Shown here piece by piece: positions 3,799-60,430 of a stretch of 64,000 nt of DNA. The position numbers and the translations under genes are program-made. Source of the stretch: Leptolyngbya sp. SIO1E4. GTDB taxonomy: Bacteria; Cyanobacteriota; Cyanobacteriia; Phormidesmidales; Phormidesmidaceae. The notes under the pieces are model-generated. The model saw only the letters and a program-made list of their open reading frames with translations, was not told where the DNA came from and made no database searches. Position 1 is the stretch's first letter. The number at the start of each line of letters is the position of its first letter. The stretch covers positions 1 to 64,000 of the forward strand of contig JAAHFU020000006.1 in the NCBI GenBank assembly GCA_010672825.2, given 5' to 3'.

Positions 3799-3829
3799 AT
3801 CCTGGAACAAAAAGATGAGGTTCTTATGA
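3799..3829 (-). promoter_or_regulatory. Direct-repeat promoter, site 1 (SDR gene)
   Basis: Gene strand: TCATAAGAACCTCA (3829-3816), 11 nt, then CAGGAT (3804-3799) as -10. The start codon is at 3666, leaving a leader of about 125 nt. The surrounding ~110 bp is homologous to the region upstream of DUF4336 (4945-5075). Confidence 0.7.
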
Positions 3830-3860
3830 GCAGGTTGAAGAAACTAGTACCGCTACGCGG

Positions 3861-3894
3861 AATTCAAAATTCAGAATTCAGAATGCAAAATGCC
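3861..3894. repeat. AATTCA-type short degenerate repeats
   Basis: Consecutive AATTCAAA/ATTCAGA/ATTCAGA/ATGCAAA heptamer-like units, the kind of short tandem repeat often scattered through filamentous cyanobacterial genomes. Apart from this repeat and promoter site 1, nothing is seen in 3667-4109. Confidence 0.5.
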
Positions 3895-4109
3895 AGCAGA
3901 CAGGCTTTTTAAGCATCCTGAATGGTGAGACTATTTCTGCCATAGTGTACTAGTAGTTCCCTCATCAATTAGTCAATCTATGGGTAGGGTAGCTAGGAGT
4001 TGTAGTGGGCACACCCTACAGGATCGGCGAACTGACAAGTCAGCGCTTGCGCTATCGCACTAGCCCAAAGACAAATCAACCTAATACCAAGCTAAGGGGC
4101 CGAGCGGCG

Positions 4110-4820
4110 CTAGGCTTTCAACACATTCTGCCATGCCTTTGTCGCTACCGCCTTTGCATCCATTTCGATCAAGTTCCCGTGTGCAATAATGATACGTTCA
4201 AAATCCCAGGAGAGAATTTTTTTCAGCCCTTTTCTCACGATCTCTTTGTCACCCCATCCCAGCTGATATTCAGGTGCGGGTTTAGGGTTATTCCACATGT
4301 GGAACACAGCTTTCCACCAGAATCTCAATAGCAGGCCGGCTTCGTGTGTATAATCATCGCCAATGTTCTCCAAGAGATCCACAAGGATTAGTGTTCGGGT
4401 TGGTTTGTGGAGAAAGGCGACTTCGTTAATAATACGCGTGCCTTGGATAACGACCTGCTCGAAATCTAATTCCCAACGGGGATCGGCTCGGTTTCCCAAG
4501 ATCCAGTCAAAACTGAGATCAGCGCGTTTCTTTTCCAGACCTGGGCAGAGAAAGGTTTCAGCGTTGGGGTAATCGGCTTGGAGATCGGAAACATAGAGGT
4601 GGTGAAAGTTGCCGGGGGCAATGATGTAGGCGACTTGGCCGAGTTGATCAATTTCTGATTTGAGGAGTGCGTCCAATTTGCACGGGCTATGTAGCCACAG
4701 TTTGCCGTCGTTTAGCCTCACTATTGTCATACGGCTGAAGAGATCCATGCCGCCGAAGCGAATCGCATACTCCACAATGTAAATCGTGCCCGGAATATAC
4801 TCATCTATTAAATAGGCCAT
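4110..4820 (-). CDS. DUF4336 domain protein
   Basis: 236 residues covering the whole DUF4336 family, a metallo-beta-lactamase-like fold with degenerate metal ligands common in cyanobacteria and plants. Seen here: LWLHSPCKLDALL (about 42-54), APGNFHHLYVSDLQADYPNAE, FLHKPTRTLILVDLLEN and IIAHGNLIEMD near the C terminus. Function is unknown in the family. It carries a well-formed direct-repeat promoter (4923-4953), so it likely belongs to the same regulon as groES, nifJ and prs. Confidence 0.85.
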   Translation of the reverse strand: MAYLIDEYIPGTIYIVEYAIRFGGMDLFSRMTIVRLNDGKLWLHSPCKLDALLKSEIDQLGQVAYIIAPGNFHHLYVSDLQADYPNAETFLCPGLEKKRADLSFDWILGNRADPRWELDFEQVVIQGTRIINEVAFLHKPTRTLILVDLLENIGDDYTHEAGLLLRFWWKAVFHMWNNPKPAPEYQLGWGDKEIVRKGLKKILSWDFERIIIAHGNLIEMDAKAVATKAWQNVLKA

Positions 4821-4922
4821 GATGACACTCTCCCGATCGGCTTTTCATAGCCCTGCCTAACGCAGGAGCCAGACGCAGAGAAGCGGAAAATATCAGGATA
4901 ATCATTCCTCAGCTCCCTTTTC

Positions 4923-4953
4923 AAAGTAGACATAAACCATGAGGAATTTGTGG
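4923..4953 (-). promoter_or_regulatory. Direct-repeat promoter, site 2 (DUF4336)
   Basis: Gene strand: CCACAAATTCCTCA (4953-4940), 11 nt, then TACTTT (4928-4923). The leader to the start at 4820 is about 100 nt. A degenerate second copy lies at about 5062-5078, in the block homologous to the SDR promoter region. Confidence 0.75.
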
Positions 4954-5123
4954 AGAATTGCCCATCCCGACAACAGCAATCTGGAGCAAGCACACGGTCA
5001 AAGAGAGCTAACCCTGTTTCTTTTCCTCGCATCGTAATTCTGGAACAATCAGATAAAGATCTTTTGAGGAGGGCAAAGGATTGACAACCTATAGTCAAAA
5101 TCTCAGATCCCGCTGGGCTCGGG

Positions 5124-5384
5124 TTGTCGTATCTGGTCATCAGTGTAGATGGGCCTCCTATACCCTTAACGCCTCTGGTAGGCCAACACGTTGCTTTTGC
5201 AGCTCTCGATCGCAGTGTCGTGGATCGCTTCTATCAAGCAGGATTAGAAGCTGGCGGCAAAGACAATGGCCCACCCGGACTCCACCCCCATTATCATCCC
5301 AACTACTATGCAGCTTTCCTGATTAATTCAGATGGCCATCACATTGAAGTGGTTTGCCAAACCCCAGAGAAAGTCAGTTCATGA
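5124..5384 (+). pseudogene. VOC/glyoxalase-family protein, N-terminally truncated
   Basis: The frame encodes the C-terminal half of a vicinal-oxygen-chelate dioxygenase-superfamily protein: HVAFAALDRSVVDRFYQAG, GLHPHYHPNYYAAF and a metal-ligand-like DGHHIEVVC. Family members are about 120-130 residues; the first roughly 50, including the first metal-binding strand, are missing. The listed ATG has no good ribosome-binding site. It is best read as a remnant, abutting the promoter region of the divergent DUF4336 gene. Confidence 0.7.
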
Positions 5385-5699
5385 AATGGGTTACAGGCTA
5401 TTCCAGGCAGTCAATCACGAGGAGCCGTGTCATGAGTATTGCTCTCCGACCCTCATAAGTTTGCCAAGTTGTTGCCATAGAGTGAAGGTAGAAGACAGCT
5501 GAGGAAATGTACTACGCCTAATTCACTCAGCTACTAGCCTGAGAGATAAGACGTCATATCTGTCTGTTGAGAAAAAAAGACTATTAATTAGGTAGAAATA
5601 TTTCCTCAACGATAGTTCGATGCTGCGATCGTAAACGTTTTGTCAGGCATCCCTACGGACCCGGCGAGCAAACCGTATTGCCAGCAGGAGGGGATGAAA
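5385..5699. other. Leader/intergenic region of the TPR gene
   Basis: Contains one half-site of the recurrent motif (TTTCCTCA at 5596-5603), but the second half of the direct repeat is missing, so it was not counted as a site. Nothing else seen. Confidence 0.4.
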
Positions 5700-6932
5700 A
5701 TGAAGATTAATCGAGGTGTTTTTGTCAGCCTAGCGATCGCAGCAACGGTTGCAAATACAGGGTTAGTGTTTGCTAAACCATCTGTTCCAGTCATCATGAA
5801 TCGTGATTCGTTCGTGCTTGAAACAGAGTCAATTCTAAAGGTAAACAGAGCAACTGAACCTGTCTCGCCAATGATTGCAACCCTCGATCTTGACAGTCAG
5901 ACCATCGACCAATTGTTTGAGGCGGGCGATAGCGCTCAAGAAGCTGGCGATTACATTGAGGCTGAAATCATTTGGCGTCGGTTGCTTCAACGTGATCCTG
6001 ACAATGTCTCAGCCCGTGTCAGGCTGGGTGAAGCCCTGCATCGTCAGAATCGCTTGGAAGAGGCAATTCAAGCCTATCAATCGGCCATTAAACTAGCCCC
6101 TAACTTTACAGTTGCTCATGTCAATTTAGGTGGGGCATTTGCTGACCAGGGTGATTTTGAGGCCGCCGCTGCATCTTTACGTCAGGCCATCGAAATTGAC
6201 CCTTATTTCATGCCAGCTTACAACCTGTTGGGAGCCATTCTGCAAGAACAGGGGCAGCTGACAGAGGCGATCGCCTTGACAGAGCAGGCCATTGAAATCG
6301 ACCCCCATTGGACCGTTTCACATGTTTTGTTGGGGCATTTACGCATTGCTCAAAATGACTTCGAAGCAGCAACCGCAGCATTTTACCAAGCGCTTAATCT
6401 TACCGACATGCCTGGACCAAGAGGCAGTACCGATTCACTCGCTTACGTCGGGTTAGGAAATCTTGCCCTATCGCAAGGAGACCTTGAGGAAGCAGCCTCA
6501 GCCTACCGCCGCGCTGCTGATCTAGACCCTAGCTGTGTGGACGCTCACGTTGGTCTGGGAGCTGTACTTCTGACCCAGAGAAGATTTGGAGACGCGATTG
6601 TCTGTGAGCGACGAGCCCTTGAATTGGATCCCAATGAGCCTTGGGCCCATGTCAATCTGGGGGCTGCATTGTTGGCACAGGGTCGCTTAGAAGAGGCGAT
6701 CGCAGCCTTTCATCAAACATTGGCTTTACCTAATATGCAGGGAATGCCTGCCAGTACTCACACCCTAGCTCATACCAATCTCGGATATGTGCTGCAGTTG
6801 CAAGGCAAGCTAGAGGAGGCCATCGAGGAATACAGATATGCGCTTCAACTCGATGCCAACTTCATCCCAGCCCAAAACGCGCTTAGAGCAGCAGAGCGCT
6901 TATTAGGAGGACAGTCTTTTCCAGATGATTAA
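5700..6932 (+). CDS. Secreted TPR-repeat protein
   Basis: 410 residues from the ATG at 5700, chosen because AGGAGGGG ends about 6 nt upstream and gives a clean signal peptide (MKINRGVFVSLAIAATVAN, then cleavage near VFA-KPS). After a short linker come about nine tetratricopeptide repeats with the usual pattern (A-x-G-x-G-x-x-D/N-x-x-E-A-x-x-x-Y/F-x-x-A-x-x-x-x-P). Such repeats bind partner proteins, here probably in the periplasm. It is followed 60 bp later by a second, longer TPR gene on the same strand; the two start alike (SIDQLFE / TIDQLFE, then EAEIIWRR / EAEAIWRQ), so they are paralogues and probably one operon. Confidence 0.85.
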   Translation: MKINRGVFVSLAIAATVANTGLVFAKPSVPVIMNRDSFVLETESILKVNRATEPVSPMIATLDLDSQTIDQLFEAGDSAQEAGDYIEAEIIWRRLLQRDPDNVSARVRLGEALHRQNRLEEAIQAYQSAIKLAPNFTVAHVNLGGAFADQGDFEAAAASLRQAIEIDPYFMPAYNLLGAILQEQGQLTEAIALTEQAIEIDPHWTVSHVLLGHLRIAQNDFEAATAAFYQALNLTDMPGPRGSTDSLAYVGLGNLALSQGDLEEAASAYRRAADLDPSCVDAHVGLGAVLLTQRRFGDAIVCERRALELDPNEPWAHVNLGAALLAQGRLEEAIAAFHQTLALPNMQGMPASTHTLAHTNLGYVLQLQGKLEEAIEEYRYALQLDANFIPAQNALRAAERLLGGQSFPDD

Positions 6933-12524: not shown

Positions 12525-13319
12525 CTAAAGTGACAGCGCTGATCCACTCTTCCGGTTTTTCGTCCTTCTCACTTGAATCCAGTCAAAAAGACTGCCGACT
12601 GCCTTCTTCAGGACGCCCAAGCGTACGGGATAGTAATAGTCAGATTCGAACCAGCCCTTTTCTTGGTAGTATCGGTAGTCAAAGCTGGTCTCATCGAGTT
12701 CCAGTTGCATACTCGTTCGACCCATTCTGAAAATAATAAGCTCGAGCCACGTTGGCACTGGATAGTTCGACTTAACCAAGCTTTTGTAGAATCGCTTGCT
12801 ATGCCTTACGAGCATCTTGTCCAGTTTCTGTTTTTCCTGCTCTGTCATCGGCTCAAGCGCTGTAAAGCAAGTCCCTTTGATGGTACTGAAACCCAGGGCG
12901 TTGCCGACTAAATCAAGGTAGCTGACGATTTTACTGCCGCCATAGATTCCTTGGACAACGATGCTGGTGAAGGTCTTCCCGAAGAAGCGTGGGCGATGGC
13001 AGATAAAGCCAAGCCGGTCGAGAAATACCTTCATGATGCCGGAGACGTTGAATACATAGTTTGGTGTGGCGAAGATGACGCCATCAGACGCCATCATTTT
13101 CTCGATGAGCACATCTCGGTCGTCCTTCAAGGGACAGGACTCCTCACCCTTCTCGAAGCACTGCTTACACCCCCGACAGATTCCGAGCTGATAATCGCTG
13201 AGAGCAACGATCTCGCACTCGACATCACCAAGCGATCGTAGATGCTCCATGAATTTACGGACGGCGCTGTATGTGTGCTTCTTGCGAGCAGTTCCAACGA
13301 ACGCAGTAACTTTTTTCAT
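12525..13319 (-). CDS. Flavodoxin-like NAD(P)H-dependent FMN protein with compact cysteine motif
   Basis: 264 residues from the ATG at 13319 (MKKVTAFVGTARKKHTY), preferred over the upstream ATG at 13355 because the flavodoxin fold begins there. FMN-binding features: VGTARKKHTYSAVRK (phosphate loop), FATPNYVFNVSGIMKVFLDR and YGGSK. CRGCKQCFEKGEESC (about 47-61) has C-x2-C-x2-C-x7-C spacing, as in archaeal-type iron-sulfur flavoproteins, so a [4Fe-4S] cluster next to FMN is plausible. A C-terminal extension of about 80 residues (YRYYQEKGWF) is unassigned. The promoter carries a doubled direct-repeat motif (13361-13405). Confidence 0.75.
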   Translation of the reverse strand: MKKVTAFVGTARKKHTYSAVRKFMEHLRSLGDVECEIVALSDYQLGICRGCKQCFEKGEESCPLKDDRDVLIEKMMASDGVIFATPNYVFNVSGIMKVFLDRLGFICHRPRFFGKTFTSIVVQGIYGGSKIVSYLDLVGNALGFSTIKGTCFTALEPMTEQEKQKLDKMLVRHSKRFYKSLVKSNYPVPTWLELIIFRMGRTSMQLELDETSFDYRYYQEKGWFESDYYYPVRLGVLKKAVGSLFDWIQVRRTKNRKSGSALSL

Positions 13320-13360
13320 CTGAATAGAGGATGCATCCAGTCTTTTCCTCCTCATATTTA

Positions 13361-13405
13361 ATCCTGGAGTGCAAAGATGAGGATTTTGTGATGAGGATTT
13401 TGTGA
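13361..13405 (-). promoter_or_regulatory. Direct-repeat promoter, site 3 (flavodoxin-like gene), motif duplicated
   Basis: Gene strand: TCACAAAATCCTCA (13391-13378), 11 nt, CAGGAT (13366-13361). The same 14-mer is repeated directly upstream (13405-13392), giving three in-phase half-sites. It shares CCAGGATT with the SDR promoter. Confidence 0.75.
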
Positions 13406-18455: not shown

Positions 18456-18773
18456 TTAGCTATCTGTGAGTGTTGCCAAAAGATCCCTCTCTGAAACTAA
18501 GACATGGTCTTCATGCCCTAGTACGATGTCAGTCCCTCCATATTTTGAATAGAGGACTCGATCGCCGACCTTGACATCAATCGGTTGGAAGGAACCATCC
18601 TTTTTATGACTACCGGGTCCAACCGCGATCACTTCCCCTATCTGGGGTTTCTCCTTCACAGTATCCGGAAGTAAAATCCCACCTTCTGTCCGTTCTTCAG
18701 GGGCGCTGACCTTTACAAGAATGCGATCATCCAAAGGCTTTACCGTCGTAAGCTTCAAAGCTATTGTTGCCAT
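18456..18773 (-). CDS. groES: Co-chaperonin GroES
   Basis: 105 residues from [20 protein letters not shown]. Mobile loop [21 protein letters not shown] and the conserved [25 protein letters not shown] end are intact; length matches the family. The stretch GGAGGAGGTCTT followed by repeats of TCTTATG makes an in-frame ATG at 18788 equally well placed, so the N terminus could be five residues longer. No CIRCE element (TTAGCACTC-N9-GAGTGCTAA) is visible upstream; instead the direct-repeat promoter at 18896-18926 is present, an unusual control for groES. The following groEL is a pseudogene, so this GroES must serve another chaperonin or be on its way out. Confidence 0.92.
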
Positions 18774-18895
18774 AAGACATAAGACCATAAGACCTCCTCC
18801 TACCGGGGAAACCAAAGGTAGATAAAAACTAGGTTGAGTATAATTTTTAGAAATACTTAAACCCAATCATTCTCAGATTTGTATTACTACGATTA

Positions 18896-18926
18896 ATGCT
18901 AATAAAACAATATGAGGAAGTTATGA
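18896..18926 (-). promoter_or_regulatory. Direct-repeat promoter, site 4 (groES)
   Basis: Gene strand: TCATAACTTCCTCA (18926-18913), 11 nt, then TAGCAT (18901-18896). Leader about 115 nt. Confidence 0.8.
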
Positions 18927-21151: not shown

Positions 21152-21182
21152 ATTCAATCAGTAGACTGTGAGATTCCTATGA
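21152..21182 (-). promoter_or_regulatory. Direct-repeat promoter, site 5 (chlD), weak
   Basis: Gene strand: TCATAGGAATCTCA (21182-21169), 11 nt, TTGAAT (21157-21152). Direct repeat good, -10 poor. Confidence 0.5.
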
Positions 21183-38831: not shown

Positions 38832-38905
38832 GATGAAAGCCTCCCCTTTCTGCAACTAACAAACGCGGATGCTCGCAGTGATTAGAGATTGGCGGTTGGC
38901 CAACT

Positions 38906-40132: not shown

Positions 40133-40162
40133 CGGTTTTTCTCTCCTGATTGTGGGTGAGCG

Positions 40163-41545
40163 TCAATGGCCAGGTGCACCAAGAGACGGATCACTGCCGC
40201 TGCTAGGTAAAGCGTTTTCAACGGGCTGTATCTGCTGCTGTCTGAAGAGCCAAAGGTATACCGGAATGCCTAACAAGAGCAGAATGAAACCGTAAAGCAC
40301 GGTCTCTGCACCAGAGCCATAGATGGCCCAGACTGAGTAAATGAAGGCGATCGCAGCGACAATGCCAGAACCTTTGAAGTGCCGTCGTCCGCCAAATTGG
40401 GCTGGATCACGCAGGAAAATAATGAACTCTGCAATCGCACAAAACGCATAGGGAATTAGCGTCGTTAACGTTGCTAGCAGAATCACAAAGTTAAAGACAT
40501 CGACTAAGGTCTTGGTGCCGGAATAGTTCAACACCATCAACACTGTGATCAACACACTGGAGAGGATAATCCCAAAGGCCGGCACCCCTCGATCAGAAAT
40601 GCGGGCAAACTCCTTCGGAAAGAGATTATCCATCGCAGCGGCCATGGGTACTTGTCCCTACAAAATAATCCAACCATTGAGCGCACCGGCAGACGAAACG
40701 ACTGCCCCAAAAGCAACCGCATAATAAGCCCAGTTACCCCAAATTGCTCGGGCCGCTTCGGCAAAGGGAGCTGCCGAATTGACTAAGGCTTCTGTCGGTA
40801 AAATACCGATCACTGCAGTCGTCCCGAGGATATAGACTAATGCCGTTACAAGGGTTCCGATGATCGTGGCGCGGGGAATATTGCGCCTAGGATTCACCAC
40901 ATCGGCAGCTGGAATCGTGGCAGATTCTAATCCGATGAAGGCCCAAAGCGTGAGAGCCGCAACTGAGGAGACCGCTGTAAACGCAGGCTCACCACTGGGA
41001 TTAAAGGGCACAAAGTTGCTCCCATTCATCCAGAACAAACCAACGGTGGCGATCACCACCAGCGGCACAATTTTGATGGCGGTCGTGACCAACTGAGTCA
41101 TCCCGGCTTCTCGAATGCCGCGACAGTTAATCCAGGTGAACACCCAAATCAGGGCGATCGCTCCCAATCCCGCGATCCACGTGCTGCTGCCCAAAATTGG
41201 AATGAACACAGTGAGGTAGCTGATGCAAGCAACGGCGATTGCCGCATTACCGGCCCAAACGGCAATCCAATAGCCCCAGGCAATCCAAAAGCCAATGAAA
41301 TCCCCAAACCCCTGCCGTGCATAGGCATAGGGGCCTCCGGCTTTCGGCACCCAAGCCGCGAGTTTGGCGAACACTAAGGCCAAACAGACAGCCCCGACGG
41401 CAGTGAATAACCACCCAACAATCGACATGCCGCCATAGGGACCGAGCGAAGCCGGCAGTAGAAAAATTCCAGAACCGATCATATTGCCCACGACCAAAGC
41501 AGTGGCCATCCAAAAACCGAGTTTCCCTCGGTTAGATTCGGCCAT
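40163..41545 (-). pseudogene. arcD: Arginine/ornithine antiporter (APC family), in-frame amber codon
   Basis: One continuous frame of about 460 codons interrupted by a single TAG (40660-40658). Before it: GFWMATALVVGNMIGSGIFL, WVPKAGGPYAYARQGFGDFI, and ending GALNGWIIL. After it: GQVPMAAAMDNLFPKEFARI and four more spans. In APC antiporters a glutamine stands at this place (GW-I/L-L-Q-GQ), so CAG to TAG is the likely change. APC transporters of this type (ArcD/AdiC/PotE) exchange arginine for ornithine or a related product. The fragment before the stop has 295 residues and about eight spans; it should not transport unless TAG is suppressed. Confidence 0.85.
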
Positions 41546-41570: not shown

Positions 41571-42691
41571 AGTAGCAGGGTCGAATTAAATGTAAGATGG
41601 CAAAGTTGCTAGGGATGCCACCGATGCCTGCACCATTGCGGATTGTTTTAACAGCAGAGGAAGCCCGCACCTTAAGCGAACTGCGAGTGGCGCAGACGGT
41701 GCCGTATCGGACCCGTGACCGAGCCCACATGCTGCCGTTGAATACCCAAGGGTGGAATGCTCCGGCGATTGCCCAGATGTTTGAGTGTCATGAACATACG
41801 GTCAGAGCGACCCTTAAACGCTGGCAGACGGGGGGTCTAGGTGGGTTATGGGAAGCCCCTGGACGGGGAGCGAAACCGAAATGGCAGCCTTCGGATCTGG
41901 CGTATCTGACGGCGTGTTTAGACCAAGCCCCCCGCACTTACACCAGTGCGCAACTGGCCCAAAAGCTCAAGCAGGAACGCTTAGTGGACTTAAGCAGTGA
42001 CCGTTTGCGGCGTCTGCTCAAAAAAAAGATATCGGTGGAAACGGACACGGCACAGTCATCGAGGCAAACAAGACCCGGTTCAAAAAGCGCTGAAGCAAGC
42101 GGACTTAGACACCTTAAGACTGGCGGCTCAGGAGGGACATATTGACCTCAAGTACTTGGATGAAGCCGGGTTCTGTCTCTGGAGTCCCGTCAGCTACAGC
42201 TACAGTCGTGTCGGTGAGCAGAAGCGCCTGGAACAAACGCTGAAGCGCTATGGGCATCGGATCAGCATTTTAGGATTATGGCAACCCGGCGACGGATTCG
42301 AGTATGCCTTGGCTCAGGGAGGCTTTAAGGGAGCCAGCTACAGTGAAGTGATGGATTGGGTGGCCCAGAAGGCCGCGCACACTTTGGCAGAGTCTGGACG
42401 GATGACCGTCGTGGTGCAGGATAATGGCTCATTGCACAAGAGTCGTTTGGTGCAACAACACTGGTCCCGATGGCAGGAACAAGGACTGTTTCTTTTTTTC
42501 TTAGCGCCCTATTGTTCGGAAATGAATCCGATTGAAACGCAATGGCGACAGTTGAAAGGTCACGAAATTGCTGGTCAACTGTTTGATAGCGAATATGACC
42601 TGGCCAGGGCCGTGATTGACGGCATGGAAGCCCGCAGCGCTGCAGGGAATTATGAGCTGGAACGTTTTATATTTAATTCCGCCTAGCTACT
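41571..42691 (+). mobile_element. IS630-family insertion sequence, copy 2, upstream of arcD
   Basis: 1121 bp with 24-bp imperfect inverted ends (left AGTAGCAGGGTCGAATTAAA, right on the other strand AGTAGCTAGGCGGAATTAAA) and TA on both sides (41569-41570, 42692-42693). It sits 25 bp before the arcD start, in the opposite orientation, separating arcDABC from its leader. About 50% similar at protein level to copy 1, so an independent relative rather than a recent duplicate. Confidence 0.88.
41597..42686 (+). CDS. IS630-family transposase, two frames joined at an A8 run
   Basis: First frame with HTH ([37 protein letters not shown]), second frame from after AAAAAAAA (42020-42027): [73 protein letters not shown] residues intact. 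The shift point and the flanking GATATCGGTGGAAACG are the same as in copy 1. Confidence 0.85.
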
Positions 42692-43139: not shown

Positions 43140-43170
43140 AGCGTAAGAAAATAATTTGAGGAAATCATGA
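43140..43170 (-). promoter_or_regulatory. Direct-repeat promoter, site 11 (facing the arc operon)
   Basis: Minus strand: TCATGATTTCCTCA (43170-43157), 11 nt, TACGCT (43145-43140). After removing the IS630 the next gene downstream is arcD, about 490 nt away. Confidence 0.75.
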
Positions 43171-43200: not shown

Positions 43201-43665
43201 TTAGAGTTTGAGTCGCCTTGCAGTTTTGTTCATAGCACCTAACCATTGATAGGCAACTAGATTGAGCAGCAGCCCCACACAAAATAGGAACACCATCAGT
43301 ATCAACTGATAACTGGGAACTGCAATAAGGCTATCCAAAACAAAATGCAGCAGGTTGAGTACTGTATAGATCAGCGTCATACCAAAATGCAGTTTGCGGA
43401 ACAGTAGCGAGGGATGAAACACACACCCTACGATCGCCAACAACGGCAGCGAGAAAAAGATCAACATGAACCACATCACCACAGTCACGCTGATGTAGTC
43501 ATGGGCATGGGATTCAACCACACTAAGGCCATGAAACAACGGCATCAAAGCCAGCTGTGTATGAAATAAGGTACCGAGTAAAAAAACTGTCCATAACGCG
43601 GCGATCTTGGCCGTAAAGTTGTTAGCGGTAGGCTTGTGCATGACGGAATGGATGGCATCATCCAC
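43201..43665 (-). CDS. Four-span membrane protein, unknown
   Basis: 154 residues, hydrophobic spans about 18-45, 60-82, 90-112 and 118-142; HFGMTLIYTVLNLLHFVLDS and a His-rich loop (HGLSVVESHAHDYISV) that could bind metal or heme. No family recognised. Has a well-formed direct-repeat promoter just upstream. The gene behind it (43736-43957) is a truncated paralogue. Confidence 0.65.
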   Translation of the reverse strand: MDDAIHSVMHKPTANNFTAKIAALWTVFLLGTLFHTQLALMPLFHGLSVVESHAHDYISVTVVMWFMLIFFSLPLLAIVGCVFHPSLLFRKLHFGMTLIYTVLNLLHFVLDSLIAVPSYQLILMVFLFCVGLLLNLVAYQWLGAMNKTARRLKL

Positions 43666-43684: not shown

Positions 43685-43715
43685 ACCGTAGAAAATGAAG
43701 GTGGGGAACTTATGA
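43685..43715 (-). promoter_or_regulatory. Direct-repeat promoter, site 12 (membrane protein 43201)
   Basis: Gene strand: TCATAAGTTCCCCA (43715-43702), 11 nt, TACGGT (43690-43685). Leader about 15 nt. Confidence 0.75.
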
Positions 43716-43985: not shown

Positions 43986-45260
43986 TCACTCTTCGTATCT
44001 AATATCTCCATATACGCAATTATTAGGATATCCAAGACTCCCATGAAAGCTGATGGGATCACTGTGCATGAATACATTCTTTGAGTAGTTCATCAACAAA
44101 AAATTTTTTATTGGAAAGCTTCCTATCACCTCTGTGCTTAACCTGACAATGCCCGTTTCTTCTATTTTTTCATTATTGAAATATGCGAGCAGCGTATTTC
44201 TAATCTGATCATTTTCGACGCCATTTTCGCCTTGAGCTTTCCTGGTGGCTACCCATAGAACGACTTTTTCACTGGCACCTAAAATATACTTCCCTCTTAT
44301 TTTTCCCTTGCCATCCTCTGGTAAAAGTTCGCATTCTACTGTTGCTTCAGCTAAACTATTGCTTTTCTTTGCAATTAGCAGATGAGCATGTTCGCCTATT
44401 ATCACTGGTGATGATCCATAATTTTCCAAGCGGATTTTTGCAGCCCATCTTTTGTTATTATCCAGTATAGGCTTGATGTATTCATGAATATGCTTAAAGA
44501 GTCTTGCCTCCCTTTCAATTATCGGTTGAACCTCTTTAATAACTTCCCTTAGATTTGCGGGATCTGCTGACTTAAGAATTATTGCTAAAGGCTCAAGCCT
44601 CTCTTTTATTGATGGAAAGCTTGTGAGATTTCTGCCAATAAAACTAAAGCTTTTATGCCAGTCAATTTGAAAGAAAGCATATGCAAGACCTTGGCTTTCG
44701 CCAGAAATCCTAACATCGTCAGTCACAGATAAATTGTTCGGCACATCACTCATCTTTTTGGGAAGCTTGTTAGGGAGCTTTTCAACATCTATTTTTAATT
44801 CTCCATAAGTTAAAGCCTTATCTAATGCACTGGACATTCCATTAGTATCATAAATTTCTCTGATTATATTTTTAGTTTTTTCATGCGATTGCATTAGCGA
44901 AACGTCTGAATTCTCATCTGTATTGTTAATAATTTCTTCGAGATCTAGAATCCACCTGTCAATTTTTTCGGCAGATTTCTCTAGTTCCTTTTGACTGTCT
45001 TTGGCTTCCGTATAGACTTCATAGAGAGTAACAAGTTGAACTTCTTCGCCTGCTCCTTTGGAAGGCCTGCTAAAAATCCATGATGCCTCAATGTCTTCCC
45101 TCAGTTCAGTAGAATAAGACACTTTTGTTCCTTCATCAATAAAAGTTGAGAATCCTTGAACAATTAGCAAAGGCTTTCCTCTATTCTGCCAACGATTAAA
45201 TATGTCACCTAGCATAAATGCAAATATAGGAATTAAAAGCTCCAGAAAAATAGGCATCAC
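43986..45260 (-). CDS. Membrane-anchored protein of unknown function
   Basis: 424 residues: one N-terminal hydrophobic segment (residues 3-18, IFLELLIPIFAFMLGD), then a soluble part with a probable coiled coil (about 85-150, KDSQKELEKSAEKIDRWILD) and a C-terminal beta-rich region (RLENYGSSPVIIGEHAHLLI). Not recognised. AT-richer than all neighbours, suggesting acquisition. It nevertheless sits downstream of direct-repeat promoter 13, with a leader of about 110 nt, so it may have been inserted behind an existing regulon promoter. Confidence 0.65.
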   Translation of the reverse strand: MMPIFLELLIPIFAFMLGDIFNRWQNRGKPLLIVQGFSTFIDEGTKVSYSTELREDIEASWIFSRPSKGAGEEVQLVTLYEVYTEAKDSQKELEKSAEKIDRWILDLEEIINNTDENSDVSLMQSHEKTKNIIREIYDTNGMSSALDKALTYGELKIDVEKLPNKLPKKMSDVPNNLSVTDDVRISGESQGLAYAFFQIDWHKSFSFIGRNLTSFPSIKERLEPLAIILKSADPANLREVIKEVQPIIEREARLFKHIHEYIKPILDNNKRWAAKIRLENYGSSPVIIGEHAHLLIAKKSNSLAEATVECELLPEDGKGKIRGKYILGASEKVVLWVATRKAQGENGVENDQIRNTLLAYFNNEKIEETGIVRLSTEVIGSFPIKNFLLMNYSKNVFMHSDPISFHGSLGYPNNCVYGDIRYEE

Positions 45261-45374: not shown

Positions 45375-45406
45375 ATAATACCGAGAAAAAGATGAGGAAC
45401 TCATGA
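45375..45406 (-). promoter_or_regulatory. Direct-repeat promoter, site 13 (gene 43986)
   Basis: Gene strand: TCATGAGTTCCTCA (45406-45393), 12 nt (not 11), TATTAT (45380-45375). Confidence 0.65.
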
Positions 45407-48590: not shown

Positions 48591-48878
48591 CTATCCGATT
48601 CGGAATTCTAGAAGAGGGGTAGTGACAGGAAAGAGAATTGGCAAATTGAGTAGCAAAGCATCTTGTTCAACTTGAGCATTTTTCTCTTGGGCGTTTTCAG
48701 CGACTAAAAAGGCGTTTCCTACTCCATAAGCCTTTGCAGCTATCAAATCACCACTCGCTTCGAAGGTGTCTTGATAAAGGGGGTTGGCCTGTACTGATAC
48801 GTAGCCACTGCTAGCCCAAAGCGCCCAGAACAGAGCAAGGAGGCCAATTAGCCACCACTTCAAAGGTTTCCATCGCAT
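48591..48878 (-). CDS. Small membrane-anchored or secreted protein, unknown
   Basis: 95 residues from the ATG at 48878 (GGAGGTAAACCC before it). One hydrophobic segment (WWLIGLLALFWALWASSGYV), then YQDTFEASGDLIAAKAYGVG and a hydrophobic end. It overlaps the end of nifJ by 19 bp and so is translated from the same mRNA. No family recognised. Confidence 0.6.
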   Translation of the reverse strand: MRWKPLKWWLIGLLALFWALWASSGYVSVQANPLYQDTFEASGDLIAAKAYGVGNAFLVAENAQEKNAQVEQDALLLNLPILFPVTTPLLEFRIG

Positions 48879-51800
48879 GGGTTTACCTCCTGAATATTCA
48901 AATTCGCCAGCGAGTGATACAACTGCCACCGCATCTGCACATCCTGCCGGGCTTGTTGAAGCAAGTTTTTTGCCGCTTCAGGATGGCTGCGGGCAAGCAT
49001 TTTGAAGCGATTCTCAGCATACATAGAGGCTTCAACCGGGAGTTTGGGGGCACGGCTATCGACAATAAGGGGATTGAGCCCGGCTGTGCGACGGCGAGGA
49101 TCGTAGCGGTAGAGGAACCAGCGACCGGAGTCAACGATCGCTTTTTGGTGGTGCATTGCAGCGGCCATATTGATGCCATGGGCAATACAATGGGCGTACG
49201 CAATGATCAGGGACGGGCCATTATAGGCTTCGGCTTCGAGGAAGGCTTTGAGCGTGTGTTCGTCGCGGGCTCCCATCGCGACACTGGCAACGTAGGCAGA
49301 ACCGTAGGTCATCGCCATGAGACCCAGGTCTTTTTTGGCGGCGGTTTTGCCCGCTGCGGCGAACTTAGCCACAGCAGCTCTAGGCGTTGCCTTGGATTGC
49401 TGACCACCCGTATTGGAGTAGACTTCGGTGTCGAGAACAAGGATGTTGACATTGCGATCGCTACTCAGCACATGATCTAATCCGCCATACCCAATGTCGT
49501 AGGCCCAGCCGTCACCCCCGACAATCCACACACTCTTTTTCACTAGAGAATCAGCGAGAGACAAAAATCGCTGAATTTTGGCCTCTAGGTCTTCAGAGAT
49601 AGCGATTTGCATGGTCTCTATTAGCAGGGTCTTGAGTTGGGCAACTCGCTCCCGCTGCTCCACGATATCGACTTCATCAGTTTGCTGCGTTTGGAGAATC
49701 TGTTGGGCCAAGGTGGGCAAAGCAGACGCTTGCAAGCGGTCTTCTGCAGCGAGTTGCTGCAACAGCTCAGCCGCATATTCTGCCTGCTTGTCGATAGAAA
49801 TTCGGAATCCCAGGCCAAACTCGGCATTGTCTTCAAACAGCGAGTTCGACCAGGCGGGACCCCGTCCCTCGGCGTTTTGACTCCAGGGCGTTGTGGGTAG
49901 GTTGCCACCGTAGATAGAAGAACAACCCGTGGCGTTGGCAATCAATAGGCGATCGCCAAAGAGTTGGGTGAGTAATTTCAGATAGGGCGTTTCACCACAG
50001 CCTGCACAGGCTCCCGAAAATTCAAACAGCGGTTCCTGCATCTGCTGCTGGCTGATTTTGTGCAGATTAAGCTGCTGGCGATCGGGGTTGGGCAGCTTCA
50101 AAAAGAAATCCCAATTCAGCTTCTCCTGCTGCCGCAAATCAACGGTGTTATCGTTTGCCTTAGGTTTGCCCTCAAGACCCGCTAATGCTGAGGGGCTTTG
50201 AACTTTGGTTCCCCCAGTATTCGCGGGCGAGGGGTTCCGTCGGATGTTTGTCTTGCCATTATCTTCAGACGTTGACGCCGTTTGATAAACCGGGGTCATG
50301 TTGATCGCCTTCAAGCAGGGAATAGCCTTGTTTTTAGCGGGACACACATCGACACAGATGCCACAGCCAGTGCAGTCTTCCGCCGCCACCTGAATGGTGA
50401 ATGCTTGCCCTGGCCACTCGCGCGCAGCTTTGTGTTTGAAGGTGTCGGGGGCATTGACTAGTTGCTCTGGCTCATAGACTTTGCTGCGAATTACCCCGTG
50501 GGGGCACACCATGACGCACTTGCCGCATTGCACACACACATCTGGATCCCATACTGGAATTTCCTGGGCAATGTTGCGCTTTTCCCACTGAGTGGTGCCG
50601 GTTGGATAGGTTCCATCACAGGGCAGGGCGCTGACGGGAAGGGTATCGCCTTGGCGTTGCATCATGGGGCTCAGCACGGTTTGCACAAAGGTTGGGGCAG
50701 TATCAGGCACAGGCGACTTGAGGGGCGGTATTGTTGCACCTTGATCCTGAGTGGGAGAAAGAAGAGGAACTTTGTACAAGTGCTGTAGGGTCTGATCCAC
50801 GGCCTGAAGGTTCATCGCGACGATCTCCGCTCCCTTTTTGGCATAGGTCTTATGAATAGAATTTTTAATCGCCGCGATCGCGGCGGCTTGGGGCAAAATG
50901 TGCGACAGGGTAAAGAAGCAGGTTTGCATTATCGTGTTGATGTGTCCGCCCATACCTGCTTCGCGAGCTACCTGATAAGCGTTGATAGCGTAGACCTGCA
51001 GCTGCTTCTGAACAATCTGGGCCTGGATACGCTCAGGGAGCTGGTTCCAGGTTCCCTCAGGGGCATAGGGGGAATTCAGCAAAAACGTTGCCTCTACCAT
51101 GGCTGGCCCCAGAATGTCGAGTTGGTCTAGCAGCATCCACTGGTGACAGGCGACTAGATTGGCCTGGTCGATTAAATAGGGAGCGTGGACAGGGGCAGGG
51201 CCAAACCTGAGGTGAGAGGTCGTGACCGATCCAGACTTCTTCGAGTCATAGACAAAGTATCCCTGGGCATAGTTTTCGGTCGTTTCGCCAATGATTTTGA
51301 TCGTGTTTTTATTTGCTCCCACCGTGCCATCTGCCCCCAAACCATAAAAGACCGCACGGACGGTTTGTGTCGGTTCAATAGAAAAGCTGGGATCATAAGG
51401 CAGACTGGTATGGGTCACATCGTCGTGGATGCCAATGGTGAAATGATTCTTCGGCCCTGGCAGATTATGCTGAAACCCATCCAGCAGTAGATTGTCGAAA
51501 ACAGCCTTCACCATTGCTGGGGTAAACTCTTTGGACGATAGTCCGTAGCGGCCTCCAACAATGACGGGAAAGCCATTAGCGGGAGTTGTGAACCGCTGCT
51601 CTAGAAGGGCACTGAGCACATCTAAATAAAGGGGTTCGCCAGTACTGCCGGGTTCCTTGGTGCGATCTAGCACGCTGATGGCTTGCACAGTTCGCGGTAG
51701 AACGGCCACGAATCGCTGAGCGTCAAAGGGACGATAGAGCCGGACTTTGACGACTCCCACGTTTTCACCCTCCTCGTTAAGGGCATCCACAGTAGCTTGA

Positions 51801-52666
51801 ACGGTTTCACAACCAGAGCCCATCAGGACGATGACCCGCTCAGCATCAGGGCTGCCGTGATACTCAAAGGGTTGATACTGGCGTCCAGTGAACTGAGCAA
51901 AGACATCCATTACCTGCTCTAAAATGTCGATGCAGTTTTGGTAGTAGGGATTTACGGTTTCCCGTGCCTGGAAGAACACATCGGGGTTCTGGGCCGTGCC
52001 TCGAATCACAGGATGATCAGGACTGAGGGCACGCTGGCGATGTTGGGCAATCAGCTCGTCGTCCATCAGCACCCGCAAGTCACTCTCAGAAAGAAGGTCA
52101 ATTTTTTGAATTTCGTGGGAGGTGCGAAAGCCATCAAAAAAGTGAATGAAGGGAATGCGGCTGGCTAGAGACGTGGCGGTGGCGATCTCCGCCATATCCT
52201 GAGCCTCTTGCACTGAGGCCGAACATAGCATCCCAAAGCCTGTGCTGCGGGCTGCCATCACGTCGCTGTGGTCGCCAAAGATAGAGAGTGCTTGAGCGGC
52301 TACTGATCGGGCAGCGACGTGAATTACACAAGGCGTCAGTTCACCCGCAATCTTGTAGAGATTGGGTAGCATCAACAACAGCCCTTGGGAAGCCGTAAAG
52401 GTCGTGGTCAGCGCGCCTGTTTGCAGCGCCCCATGCACCGCTCCAGCCACCCCCCCTTCACTCTGCATCTCCACAATCGCCGGAACCGTTCCCCACAGAT
52501 TGGGCTTACCGCTAGCAGCCCAGGCATCCGCCCATTCTCCCATTGGCGACGCGGGGGTAATGGGATAAATGGCAATGACCTCATTGAGGGCATAAGCAAC
52601 CCGTGCCACAGCTTCATTACCATCCAGGTTAATAGCAGTGGGTTGCAATAATGCAGAGATGGTCAT
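48860..52666 (-). CDS. nifJ: Pyruvate:ferredoxin (flavodoxin) oxidoreductase
   Basis: 1268 residues from the ATG at 52666 (GAGGA eight bases upstream). Oxidatively decarboxylates pyruvate to acetyl-CoA, reducing ferredoxin. Domains in order: pyrimidine-binding domain (IYPITPASPMGEWADAW), CoA domain (GDHSDVMAARSTGFGML), two [4Fe-4S] ferredoxin motifs (CVQCGKCVMVCPHG about 712; CTGCGICVDVCPAK about 767), and TPP domain (GACAGCGETPYLKLLTQLFG about 885; IVGGDGWAYDIGYGGLDHVL). Between the ferredoxin and TPP domains there is an unusual low-complexity insert of about 60 residues (STSEDNGKTNIRRNPSPANT), making the protein about 70 residues longer than usual. Direct-repeat promoter 40-70 bp upstream. 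Confidence 0.95.
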   Translation of the reverse strand: MTISALLQPTAINLDGNEAVARVAYALNEVIAIYPITPASPMGEWADAWAASGKPNLWGTVPAIVEMQSEGGVAGAVHGALQTGALTTTFTASQGLLLMLPNLYKIAGELTPCVIHVAARSVAAQALSIFGDHSDVMAARSTGFGMLCSASVQEAQDMAEIATATSLASRIPFIHFFDGFRTSHEIQKIDLLSESDLRVLMDDELIAQHRQRALSPDHPVIRGTAQNPDVFFQARETVNPYYQNCIDILEQVMDVFAQFTGRQYQPFEYHGSPDAERVIVLMGSGCETVQATVDALNEEGENVGVVKVRLYRPFDAQRFVAVLPRTVQAISVLDRTKEPGSTGEPLYLDVLSALLEQRFTTPANGFPVIVGGRYGLSSKEFTPAMVKAVFDNLLLDGFQHNLPGPKNHFTIGIHDDVTHTSLPYDPSFSIEPTQTVRAVFYGLGADGTVGANKNTIKIIGETTENYAQGYFVYDSKKSGSVTTSHLRFGPAPVHAPYLIDQANLVACHQWMLLDQLDILGPAMVEATFLLNSPYAPEGTWNQLPERIQAQIVQKQLQVYAINAYQVAREAGMGGHINTIMQTCFFTLSHILPQAAAIAAIKNSIHKTYAKKGAEIVAMNLQAVDQTLQHLYKVPLLSPTQDQGATIPPLKSPVPDTAPTFVQTVLSPMMQRQGDTLPVSALPCDGTYPTGTTQWEKRNIAQEIPVWDPDVCVQCGKCVMVCPHGVIRSKVYEPEQLVNAPDTFKHKAAREWPGQAFTIQVAAEDCTGCGICVDVCPAKNKAIPCLKAINMTPVYQTASTSEDNGKTNIRRNPSPANTGGTKVQSPSALAGLEGKPKANDNTVDLRQQEKLNWDFFLKLPNPDRQQLNLHKISQQQMQEPLFEFSGACAGCGETPYLKLLTQLFGDRLLIANATGCSSIYGGNLPTTPWSQNAEGRGPAWSNSLFEDNAEFGLGFRISIDKQAEYAAELLQQLAAEDRLQASALPTLAQQILQTQQTDEVDIVEQRERVAQLKTLLIETMQIAISEDLEAKIQRFLSLADSLVKKSVWIVGGDGWAYDIGYGGLDHVLSSDRNVNILVLDTEVYSNTGGQQSKATPRAAVAKFAAAGKTAAKKDLGLMAMTYGSAYVASVAMGARDEHTLKAFLEAEAYNGPSLIIAYAHCIAHGINMAAAMHHQKAIVDSGRWFLYRYDPRRRTAGLNPLIVDSRAPKLPVEASMYAENRFKMLARSHPEAAKNLLQQARQDVQMRWQLYHSLANLNIQEVNPCDGNL

Positions 52667-52707
52667 AGCTGCAGTCCTCAAGTAGCTTGCGCCAACCTTT
52701 GGATTTC

Positions 52708-52738
52708 AGCTTAGAGAGAGAATTTGAGGAAGTTATGA
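52708..52738 (-). promoter_or_regulatory. Direct-repeat promoter, site 14 (nifJ)
   Basis: Gene strand: TCATAACTTCCTCA (52738-52725), 11 nt, TAAGCT (52713-52708). The 14-mer is identical to that of groES. Leader about 35 nt. Confidence 0.85.
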
Positions 52739-55797: not shown

Positions 55798-56862
55798 TCA
55801 ATCCACTGTAAGGCTCGTGGGGAGAGAGTCCCCTTCAGCGAACACCACATCCGCTTGTTCTGTGCCATCTCTCTGTGCTGACTCCAATAACTCCACAATT
55901 GAACCTCCACTATGGAGTCTGCGAATCGCTTCAGCAAACAGTGGTGTGGTATCCAGAATCTTGAGTTTGTCCTTCACAGCACCTGACGTCAAACGGAAGG
56001 GTGAAATTGTATTAGTAATGACAATTTGATCGAGATTTGGGGTTGCCAAAATCTGGTTGGATTCCTCAGCAAAAACACCATGGGAGGCGGCTGCATAGAC
56101 TTTGATTGCGCCTTGGTGATGACAGGCATTCGCTGTTCGAGCTAACGTCGTGCCGCTACTGATCAGGTCATCAATGATAATTGCAATGCGACCTTGGATG
56201 TCACCGGCAATCATTTCCCCGGAAACGACACCCGCGCTGCGATATTTCTCGGTAAAGGCAATGGGAATGTCTTGATGTAGCTTATCGCTGAGAACGCTTC
56301 GAAAGGCTTCAGCCCGCTTGACACCACCAAAATCAGGCGACACTACAACAGCCTCGTCATCGCGCACCAGTGGAGCAAAATGATGCACAAAGATGGTTTT
56401 CCCTTCCAAATGCTCAGTCGGGCATCGAAAGGCATTTTGAAAAGCTGCTAGGTTATGGACATCTAGAGTGACAACGAGATCGCATCCTATCGCCTCAAAA
56501 AGATAGGCCATATATCGGGTCGTCACCGGATCGCGGAATTTTGTTTTGCGATCTTTGCGGGCGTAGCAGAGATAAGGAACTACAGCGGTTACTCGCGCAG
56601 CGGAGGCATCCTTAAGTGCCCCAATAAAAAAGAGCAAGCGGCAGAGTTTATCGTTGACGCTGGCATGAGGCTCACCGTAAAGCGATTGGATGACGTAAAC
56701 ATCCTGTCCACGCACATTGATGAGCGATCTCGTCTTATGCTCACCATCTTCAAAATCCCGTTCTTTATGGGGGCTCAGAGCAATACCCAGATGCTCAGCA
56801 ACACGTTCACCGAAGTACCGACTGGCATTGAGGCTAAAAAGCTTAATGGCTGAATTGTTCAT
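55798..56862 (-). CDS. prs: Ribose-phosphate pyrophosphokinase
   Basis: 354 residues. Transfers pyrophosphate from ATP to ribose 5-phosphate, giving PRPP for nucleotide, His and Trp synthesis. [20 protein letters not shown] (about 37-56), [20 protein letters not shown] (flexible loop), [14 protein letters not shown], and the PRPP loop [19 protein letters not shown] (about 231-249). A C-terminal tail of about 30 residues exceeds the 315-residue classical form, so it may be a second, condition-specific Prs. Its direct-repeat promoter lies about 45 bp upstream. Confidence 0.9.
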
Positions 56863-56891: not shown

Positions 56892-56922
56892 AGCGTAGAA
56901 CGGAGATCTGAGGAAATCGTGA
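56892..56922 (-). promoter_or_regulatory. Direct-repeat promoter, site 15 (prs)
   Basis: Gene strand: TCACGATTTCCTCA (56922-56909), 11 nt, TACGCT (56897-56892). Leader about 25 nt. Confidence 0.8.
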
Positions 56923-58916: not shown

Positions 58917-59203
58917 GGCGACATCTTCCCTTTGGACTTTGGACAAATTTGCGAGGATCATGGGTCGAACTGAATTTCTGAAAACCTTGTATAAAAAGCT
59001 TTGTAGCGATTCTTGGCCTGTCGAAAAGCTTTGATTTGGGAGATATCTGGGAGTTGGACAAAATTGGCTTGAGCCTCAAAATCTCGAATATCTCCAATCT
59101 GAGAGCTTCCTGGTGGCTGGAACCACCGGAAACTCGTTAAATTAGTGATTCCTGCAGGTGCCTTTTTGTCCAAAGTCCAGTTCCCTCGATATCGCCCTTT
59201 AAA

Positions 59204-59370
59204 CGCTCCTTATTGAGTTTTTCAATGGTTCCCTCCTGAACCTTCCTACTTGGAATCATGAGCACACAGTTCGCACAATCACCTTCACATAGCCGCTTCT
59301 TGCTAGATCCTTAGTTTGGCCTTGCCGGTGTCGGTGTTGCCATTTCTTCCTAAGAGAGATTGGATCTCTG
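59204..59370 (-). ncRNA. Candidate structured small RNA, copy B (3' end cut by MITE)
   Basis: Minus-strand homologue of 29988-30163. The 5' hairpin is AGAGAT/ATCTCT (59369-59355): position kept, sequence changed on both sides. Then GGCAAGGCCAAACTAAGGAT, CTAGCAAGAAGCGGCTATG (TAGC/GCTA pairing kept), GTGCGAACTG and the identical hairpin GGTTCAGGAGGGAACC. The MITE begins at 59203, just where copy A enters its terminator stem, so copy B lacks the terminator. Divergent from the DUF4278 gene at 59643, as in copy A. Confidence 0.5.
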
Positions 59371-59378
59371 ATTTTTAG

Positions 59379-59418
59379 TTTCCATCACAGAACATTCATT
59401 TCCATCACAGAACATTCA
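59379..59418. repeat. 20-bp tandem repeat upstream of RNA B
   Basis: TTTCCATCACAGAACATTCA twice head to tail (59379-59398, 59399-59418), in the presumed promoter region of candidate RNA B. Confidence 0.9.
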
Positions 59419-59642
59419 ATGGTGCTGCCGTATTGGTGATGGAGTCGTAACGCTTTGTGTATCTTTCATGGCGAAGTGTTGAAAATCGCAAGTCTCGACA
59501 AAATGTATCGTAAAATACAGGTGTGAAGAAGAAATCGTTCATCTCTCTGGTTTAGTGGTGTGAGCGATGGAATAGCAGAGAGACGGAAGTAGGGATTGTC
59601 CCGAAGGAACGCGCCTCAACTCACTTCAAGGAGGCAGGGACT

Positions 59643-60149
59643 ATGCAACTCACTTATCGCGGTGCTCACTACACTTATGCACCCAATCCCGTTCCCAAGT
59701 TTGGTTCAATATTGGCAACTGGGATCTATCGGGGTGCTCCAGTATCCTTCCGGGCATTGGCAGAAATGCCTGAACAACCCAGGTTTAGTTTGAAGTGGCG
59801 AGGTGTGCCCTATCGGAGTGGTCCTAAAGTCCATAGGGTTCAGTCGACTGGGCCAGCAGCCACACCTGCAATGACGGCAACTGCGCCAGTGGCTACATCT
59901 GAGCCCAGCACCCCCTTGACACATGAATCCGCAATAGCAACCTCCAAGCTCAGTATTCTTGAACGAGCCAGAACGCTCTTTATTCGCCGCCACCAAAAAG
60001 TTCGGCAGCGGGAACAATCGATGCTAGCTCGTTTAGATGAAGAGGTCGGGCTAGCTGCTAAGGATGCCGCTAACTACGAAAGCCAAGTTCAAGGCAAGGT
60101 GCCTCATGACTTTGCCGGATATGACCGGAGTGGCACAGCCATGAGCTAA
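59643..60149 (+). CDS. DUF4278 protein with long C-terminal extension (copy 2)
   Basis: 168 residues; AAGGAGG ten bases before the ATG. The DUF4278 repeats QLTYRGAHYTYAPN (residues 2-15) and SLKWRGVPYRSGPK (about 49-62) match copy 1. Copy 2 adds about 105 residues: a Thr/Ala/Pro linker and a basic helical part (LERARTLFIRRHQKVRQREQ). No direct-repeat promoter was found, in contrast to copy 1, but the divergent structured-RNA candidate is shared. Function unknown. Confidence 0.8.
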   Translation: MQLTYRGAHYTYAPNPVPKFGSILATGIYRGAPVSFRALAEMPEQPRFSLKWRGVPYRSGPKVHRVQSTGPAATPAMTATAPVATSEPSTPLTHESAIATSKLSILERARTLFIRRHQKVRQREQSMLARLDEEVGLAAKDAANYESQVQGKVPHDFAGYDRSGTAMS

Positions 60150-60399
60150 GGTTCCCTAAGGCAGATCCGTCTTATGCCCTGTCTGCTTCATATCCAGGAC
60201 TTGGGCTAGTCTGATTTCCAGATAGGGTTACAAGTTATATTTGCCGCGATAGGGCAGGGCCCGATGTCATGTGGCATTGGGCTTTTGTCTAATAATGAAC
60301 TGTGATGACTCTTTGCAGCGATATCGGTACCGGAGCTTCCATTAATCCTAATAGAATTAATCTTGCTGATGCAAAGACGCCTTGAGAACACATGCATCT

Positions 60400-60430
60400 T
60401 CACAATTCCCTCAGCTTATTTTCCTATTCT
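60400..60430 (+). promoter_or_regulatory. Direct-repeat promoter, site 16 (Hsp20 remnant, then GlcG-like gene)
   Basis: TCACAATTCCCTCA (60400-60413), 11 nt, TATTCT (60425-60430). The transcript would run through the Hsp20 remnant to the gene at 60683. Confidence 0.75.

Follow-up and report, generated by a model that had tools for sequence, protein, structure and literature searches.

What promoter recurs between the genes of the first 64,000 bases of contig C6 of Leptolyngbya sp. SIO1E4 (C6:1-64000, hereafter the window), and which protein would use it? The genome comprises 8.22 Mb in 12 contigs, C6 being 343,755 bases long, and open reading frames (ORFs) were called mechanically throughout. 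A first-pass annotation had listed in the window 16 sites with two TCA half-sites 11 bp apart followed by a hexamer, and had attributed them to one response regulator of the OmpR/PhoB type. By computation we found a longer element of fixed geometry, TCYTCA-N5-TCCTCA (two 6-bp half-sites with an 11-bp period, hereafter the box), then 11 nt, then TANNNT. It is conserved, it lies before genes, it co-occurs and is linked with one family of regulators, and box and recognition helix covary when the element is compared with that of RfpB, the regulator of far-red clusters. We give a probability of about 0.75 to the reading that the element is an activator-dependent promoter, which would be bound by the regulator encoded at C6:86758-88602 in place of a -35 element; binding, activation, the order of the phosphorelay and the signal are what we infer here.

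Geometry and enrichment of the element in the window

For the scan, 28 sites that lie outside the window were made into a 31-position weight matrix. These sites were chosen with the consensus of the first-pass annotation and, therefore, the matrix is independent of the letters of the window but not of the idea, and the scan is not blind. The matrix recovered 14 of the 16 sites. It missed 45375, because the gap to the hexamer is 12 nt there, and 21152, which we rejected for a score below 12 bits. It added two sites, 5453(+) and the weak 44848(+), the latter within a 424-aa ORF (43986-45260) of the opposite strand. All 16 coordinates and strands had been given correctly; we find support for 15 of these sites (gap of 11 nt in 14, of 12 nt in one), and the gap of 11 nt previously claimed for 15 of 16 is right if 21152 is counted. 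The 12 TANNNT and two CAGGAT hexamers reported were found at gap 11; TATTAT at 45375 (gap 12) makes 13 TANNNT hexamers, and TTGAAT, at 21152, is the remaining one. The 14-mer TCATAACTTCCTCA is indeed identical upstream of groES (18913-18926) and nifJ (52725-52738).

The period of 11 bp was borne out, but the half-site is larger than TCA: since the profile extends the motif upstream, the repeat unit is six bases, TCYTCA/TCCTCA, exactly 11 bp apart. This profile of 49 sites with at least 22 bits, which come from fetched stretches of the own genome and comprise, besides those used for training, a few matches that are weak or coding, reads T-C-Y-TCA-Y-A-A-N-W-TCCTCA, eleven T-rich bases and TA-NNN-T.

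The window holds 16 matches of at least 18 bits, against a mean of 0.03 and a maximum of 1 in 60 dinucleotide shuffles; the motif is far from equally dense in shuffled sequence, and equal density is what would have spoken against the earlier proposal. The loose 14-mer alone, with 3 mismatches, is less striking (58 in the window, 34.8 in the control). Genome-wide, a TANNNT follows 24 distinct cores at a gap between 4 and 24 (2 in the reversed control), and 19 of these gaps are 11 and three are 12, where about 0.4 per gap is expected in random sequence. The distance from the box to the next mechanical ORF in the window is mostly 5-163 nt, sites 25521 and 43140 being without a clear gene behind them. 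The features are the following.

3799-3829, minus: box with -10 hexamer CAGGAT, matrix score 23.7; upstream of NAD(P)-binding/NmrA-like gene 2812-3666 (PF13460)
4923-4953, minus: box with -10, score 24.5; upstream of DUF4336 gene 4110-4820 (PF14234)
5453-5483, plus: additional box, score 19.8; upstream of ORF 5640-6932; spacer nearly matches that at C4:333290
13361-13405, minus: box with -10 hexamer CAGGAT, the 14-mer being present twice in tandem; FMN_red/flavodoxin-like gene 12525-13355 follows
18896-18926, minus: box with -10, score 34.8; upstream of groES 18456-18866 (Cpn10, PF00166)
21152-21182, minus: site of the first-pass annotation, unsupported
24701-25267, 188-aa gene, preceded by 25295-25325, minus: box with -10, score 29.1; homologues in genomes G032 and G002 are boxed
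25521-25551, plus: box with -10, score 23.1; no recognisable gene behind
29859-29889, minus: box with -10, score 34.1; upstream of DUF4278 gene 29522-29782 (PF14105)
31583-31613, minus: box with -10, score 29.9; upstream of PRC-barrel gene 31318-31572 (PF05239)
32869-32899, plus: box with -10, score 28.8; upstream of psbU-like gene 32950-33366 (PF06514)
36899-41545, minus: arginine deiminase block; arcC 36899-37822, ornithine carbamoyltransferase 37830-38855 and arcA 38906-40132 (NCBIfam), permease-like ORFs to 41545 (by eye)
43140-43170, minus: box with -10, score 31.7; transposase-like ORFs 41597-42686 (by eye) separate it from permease-like ORF 40658-41545
43685-43715, minus: box with -10, score 30.4; upstream of 154-aa gene 43201-43665, whose G002 homologue is boxed
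45375-45406, minus: box whose hexamer TATTAT comes after 12 nt; upstream of the 424-aa ORF 43986-45260
48860-52681, minus: nifJ, pyruvate:ferredoxin/flavodoxin oxidoreductase (TIGR02176); G002 homologue also boxed
52708-52738, minus: box with -10, score 41.0; upstream of nifJ
56892-56922, minus: box with -10, score 26.4; upstream of ribose-phosphate pyrophosphokinase-like gene 55798-56862 (PF13793)
60400-60430, plus: box with -10, score 26.2; the 38-aa ORF behind it looks like an Hsp20 C-terminal end (by eye)

Two of these places have a peculiar structure. The second 14-mer copy at 13375-13405 is a tandem duplication directly upstream of box 13361, and the 38-aa ORF in 60400-60550, which resembles the C-terminal end of the Hsp20 proteins of the same island, is apparently a deletion remnant with its promoter intact.

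Conservation and the genes behind the boxes

In pattern searches of the whole genome and of related genomes the motif was found far above the reversed control; the matrix was applied to stretches of the own genome. In the own genome there were 79 sites with at most 2 mismatches (19 in the control) and 19 with none (0 in the control). Of the 47 sites with 0-1 mismatch, 29 (two overlapping) are on C6, all at 4.9-108 kb, in what we call the 108-kb island; the remaining ones are found at C1:414-429 kb and in three C4 stretches (between 213 and 461 kb), with singles elsewhere on C1, C2, C3 and C5. With the matrix, C6:1-140 kb gave 31 matches of at least 18 bits, and nine other stretches of the genome (176 kb in total) gave two, one of them inside a gene, both in stretches that had been chosen because of a weak site there. 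Among 143 cyanobacterial genomes the exact pattern occurs in 44, the own genome included, with 284 sites (row sum) against 1 for the reversed control; genome G016 alone has 50. Homologues of boxed genes were also boxed in 22 of 34 cases, against 18 of 114 (p 1e-7), the background being raised in both rows because the regions were mostly fetched around boxes or regulators. On the plasmid of Stanieria PCC 7437 all 10 boxes of a first stretch lie between listed genes, where the intergenic fraction is 0.224; another stretch has three matches, all between listed genes, and a third has none.

The sites could also have multiplied with a mobile or duplicated piece of DNA and have no regulatory role, given that they cluster in one island with transposase-like ORFs and that a few promoters are near copies of each other (5453 and C4:333290). 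Against this, flanks and downstream genes differ between sites, the spacer letters vary in the 49-site profile while half-sites, gap and -10 are fixed, and boxes are retained before homologous genes in other genera. We regard this explanation as hardly credible and return to the promoter reading.

The boxed genes of the window encode NifJ, GroES, psbU-like, PRC-barrel, DUF4278, flavodoxin-like and phosphoribosyl pyrophosphate synthetase-like proteins. Phosphofructokinase, a dihydroorotate-dehydrogenase-like protein, Lon and the arginine deiminase block lie nearby, and the matrix scan placed no box directly before them. Outside the window, boxes precede genes for phosphoenolpyruvate synthase, Hsp20, Psb28, FtsH, an alternate F1 beta subunit, a sigma factor and a hydrogenase-maturation-protease-like protein (profile score just under the cut-off); a D1-like protein has its box 243 nt upstream, and the box nearest to HypB is 608 nt upstream. 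The Stanieria plasmid boxes precede universal stress protein, Hsp20, ppsA and dihydroorotate-dehydrogenase-like genes. As a separate observation, the divergent D1-like protein C4:331642-332760 (L024:11642-12760), behind a box, scores 595.4 against the psbA cut-off of 596.05.

This composition suggests a dormancy regulon for hypoxia or for the energy state of the dark: from the mix of fermentation, hydrogenase, ATPase, chaperone and protease genes, anoxia or energy limitation would be the signal. The DosR dormancy regulon of mycobacteria contains universal stress proteins, Hsp20, CBS proteins, phosphofructokinase and nitroreductase, and DosR is of the LuxR type. The target mix here is similar, with a nitroreductase-like gene recognised by eye. 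Membership in the DosR type itself was rejected, as the Pfam scan of our candidate regulator finds Trans_reg_C and no GerE.

The candidate regulator and its competitors

The protein encoded at C6:86758-88602, outside the window, is likely the best regulator candidate for the box. Its domain order is REC, Trans_reg_C, HPt, then one receiver-like and one receiver domain; the Pfam matches are PF00486 and PF00072, the latter (Response_reg) in two stretches. Precisely, it has the N-terminal receiver and the Trans_reg_C winged helix that define the OmpR/PhoB class. The structure model (mean predicted local distance difference test score, pLDDT, 78.6; predicted template modelling score, pTM, 0.35) places receiver-like folds at 1-119, 362-478 and 484-606 and the winged helix at 127-221. 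Next to it are single-receiver proteins, one of which (81034-81477) is preceded by a box, and a histidine kinase of 1304 aa with CBS, PAS and GAF domains (C6:81985-85899). A boxed 129-aa protein with no Pfam match, C6:86051-86440, also adjoins the regulator, here and in G032, and has a boxed paralogue at C2:973750-974139.

Three lines of evidence single out this locus. Among the 29 winged-helix loci of the genome, it is the only one with a box of at least 22 bits within 1.5 kb. A strong homologue (at least 520 bits) predicts the box: 16 of 18 genomes with such a homologue have it, against 27 of 124 without (p 5e-8), and the association is also significant at cut-offs of 480, 440 and 400 bits. 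Outside the family of the window's organism the figures are 8/14 against 9/66 at 460 bits (p 0.0012) and 3/4 against 14/76 at 500 bits (p 0.03). Finally, a module made, in this order, of regulator, kinase (as a gene of its own or fused), single receiver and box recurs in G107, G118, G068, G119, G130 and G072, all of other families, with an Hsp20 or universal-stress gene close to the module in G107, G118 and G119; G118 showed no kinase gene between regulator and single receiver. In G110 and G120 a regulator is near a box in other gene arrangements. The idea of one OmpR/PhoB-type regulator at an 11-bp repeat thus holds in all that could be computed: period, fixed gap, location before genes, conservation and co-occurrence with one OmpR-family regulator.

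Several observations weigh against this assignment. The box of the regulator gene is some 600 nt upstream and thus not immediately in front of the gene, and the domain search recognised no oxygen sensor in the kinase. Eight of the 43 relatives with the exact box have no regulator homologue at E 1e-100 (two of them, G119 and G120, have shorter homologues near or beside a box), and G037 and G042 have homologues of at least 520 bits and no exact box. No box of at least 14 bits was found around the regulator homologue of Gloeothece, nor any box in the 20-kb stretch around a 76% paralogue in the own genome (C1:243457-245271). Part of the co-occurrence, moreover, is shared ancestry.

That another OmpR-type regulator binds the box seems unlikely to us. 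This paralogue and C6:102556-103626, which is inside the island, are both present in the genome. We rejected C6:102556-103626 as the binder on two grounds: the 1.5 kb around it are free of boxes, and several genomes rich in boxes, G002, G015, G032 and G033 among them, gave no match to this protein at 1e-70. The paralogue has the same recognition helix as the island regulator and may act redundantly with it.

It would be somewhat more surprising if the box were the extended promoter of an alternative sigma factor, e.g. the sigma-70-family factor of the island (C6:98703-99602), which we consider improbable. Its gene has a box 73 nt upstream, the protein matches the cyanobacterial RpoD/SigA-family profile TIGR02997 below the cut-off (342 against 384.5 bits), and a TANNNT -10 is described for SigE promoters of Synechocystis in the part of the source consulted (PMC11368403). 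Such a -10 is compatible with both views, and a sigma factor of this kind may cooperate with the activator; two near-identical half-sites one helical turn apart suit a head-to-tail dimer better than a -35, and a sister box of the same geometry, described below, goes with RfpB.

With the regulator C6:86758-88602 as activator, the mechanism would be as follows. Once phosphorylated, the REC-winged-helix-HPt-REC protein would bind TCYTCA-N5-TCCTCA as a head-to-tail dimer on one face of the DNA and hold RNA polymerase on the TANNNT -10 that starts 11 nt downstream; with the polymerase so held, a -35 would not be needed. The CBS/PAS/GAF protein next to it, C6:81985-85899, is probably the kinase, and its signal would pass via the single-receiver proteins and the HPt domain. 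CBS domains often sense adenylates, and our guess is that those of the kinase do so. The most likely trigger would be the running out of oxygen or energy (dark anoxia), which would turn on fermentation, hydrogenase maturation, the alternate ATPase, chaperones and proteases.

In the pho box of E. coli, too, a direct repeat of 11 bp lies some 10-11 nt ahead of the -10. PhoB and its box resemble the island system in the PF00486 winged helix, the 11-bp repeat and the distance to the -10, and differ in half-site sequence and targets, and in the HPt and extra receivers of the island regulator. Within cyanobacteria, RpaB/HLR1 is described, in the passages seen of PMC13421787, as an OmpR-family direct-repeat box, KTTACAWW-N2-KTTACAWW, with activating sites further upstream, at -45 to -66; the consensus TCYTCA-N5-TCCTCA is not made of KTTACAWW repeats and was not assigned to HLR1. 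OrrA was rejected as the binder, being a LuxR-family factor in the portion consulted of PMC13131328 and hence not of the OmpR type. For Synechocystis, the part seen of PMC11368403 explains how fermentation and hydrogen genes are controlled, SigE and cyAbrB2 being the factors involved. In the open-access literature searched (one open-access library) the box is not named.

Kinship with RfpB and the far-red sister box

Five island-type regulators are 44-51% identical to RfpB. The far-red cluster of Fischerella sp. NIES-4106 contains a plasmid relative, which we label RfpB from the genes around it and from passages of the published description. The RfpA/RfpB/RfpC system is alike in having a winged helix with receivers, an adjacent kinase, a CheY-like receiver and, in far-red clusters, a box of identical geometry. 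It differs in half-site (TCTTCA, against TCCTCA in the island), in helix (VTA/VTV, against VRT), in its photosystem and phycobilisome targets and in its sensor, a knotless phytochrome in the passages seen of PMC4658448 and a CBS/PAS/GAF kinase here. No RfpB binding site is described in the passages searched of PMC4658448, PMC6424891, PMC4390838 and PMC9386421.

The NIES-4106 protein was searched in 388 genomes, and 16 far-red clusters or fragments, that of the own genome included, were examined. A scan of genome contigs gave 80 loci, among which plain winged-helix regulators from other phyla were numerous; L183, L184, L185, L187, L189 and L190 were scanned and L183 was used. Sister boxes with 0-1 mismatch are present in 12 of the 16 clusters, the own one among them; L298 and L301 have one at 2 mismatches only, and L307 and L308 have none within 2 mismatches. 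Most of them precede psbA-type or apc genes, and some are found in front of receiver, kinase or psa genes. The profile of 26 sites reads TCTTCA-TNRGT-TCTTCA-N11-TANNCT, after dropping six of 32 matches (L177:3564, L294:12256, L294:16392, L298:3528 and L302:13209, with 2 mismatches each, and L312:5522, with 1). The core repeats of the island and far-red boxes differ by essentially one base (TCCTCA and TCTTCA). The exact far-red pattern has 31 matches in 24 of the 388 genomes (control 1); four of these matches, in G378, are near-identical copies and maybe a repeat. An RfpB-like protein at 1e-110 is found in 13 of these 24 genomes (p 3e-10); the overlap is partial, as 17 of 30 genomes with such a protein lack the exact pattern.

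The own genome carries an RfpB-like gene (C1:204342-206240), a far-red cluster at about C1:201-229 kb (L309, L312) and sister boxes at C1:215553(-), 218522(-) and 218608(+), and therefore Leptolyngbya sp. SIO1E4 is probably a chlorophyll f producer. Two further observations were made in this survey. TTTGAAG occurs about 20 nt upstream in 4 of the 26 far-red boxes (L294, L297, L300, L302), with near matches in L303, L306 and L312, and reads as an inverted third half-site. Locus L194 (JAAUUT010000045.1), labelled Candidatus Gracilibacteria, encodes a 55% RfpB-like domain, and the contig was likely binned in error.

In the sequences compared, the C-to-T change of the half-site coincides with a change of the recognition helix from VRT to VTA/VTV. 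The helix reads VT[AV]H in all 17 regulators of far-red clusters, and VRTH in 26 of 31 rows of the island set, of whose 34 loci four gave no pattern match. The 17 do not include a VRT-type regulator that contig L293 encodes some 12 kb away from its far-red genes. The five exceptions in the island set, one of them a protein of another type, belong with the adverse points above. The winged helix of the regulator aligns to PhoB (1gxp), and the varying positions, R191 and T192 within helix 187-203 of the model, align with D-V of the PhoB stretch VDVHIR. It is plausible that the arginine faces the extra G of the complementary strand, which would be the reason for TCC instead of TCT. In a tree of 60 proteins the 17 far-red proteins group as one clade (support 100/99), which also contains a copy identical to one of them. 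The island regulator falls outside this clade and has other genes as neighbours; it is a homologue, not RfpB itself. VRT is widespread in the family around the clade, and the nearer relatives of the clade read VRA, IRS or VKA; on this tree, whose root is not fixed, the change may have run from VRT to VTA.

Beyond the first-pass annotation, the analysis adds a likely regulator, the kinship with RfpB, the far-red sister box and a probable function. We hold evenly balanced the broader scenario of an old family of cyanobacterial HPt-containing OmpR phosphorelays with one promoter geometry. A branch responding to starvation (energy or oxygen) would run a mobile dormancy regulon, and RfpB would have arisen from such a regulator via two helix residues (R-T to T-A/V) and one half-site base (C to T), both regulons then working side by side in one genome without cross-talk. 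For cyanobacteria, this proposes a large anaerobic or stress regulon and supplies a candidate binding site for RfpB; the difference of one base and two residues would make a simple swap system for how a new regulon splits from an old one.

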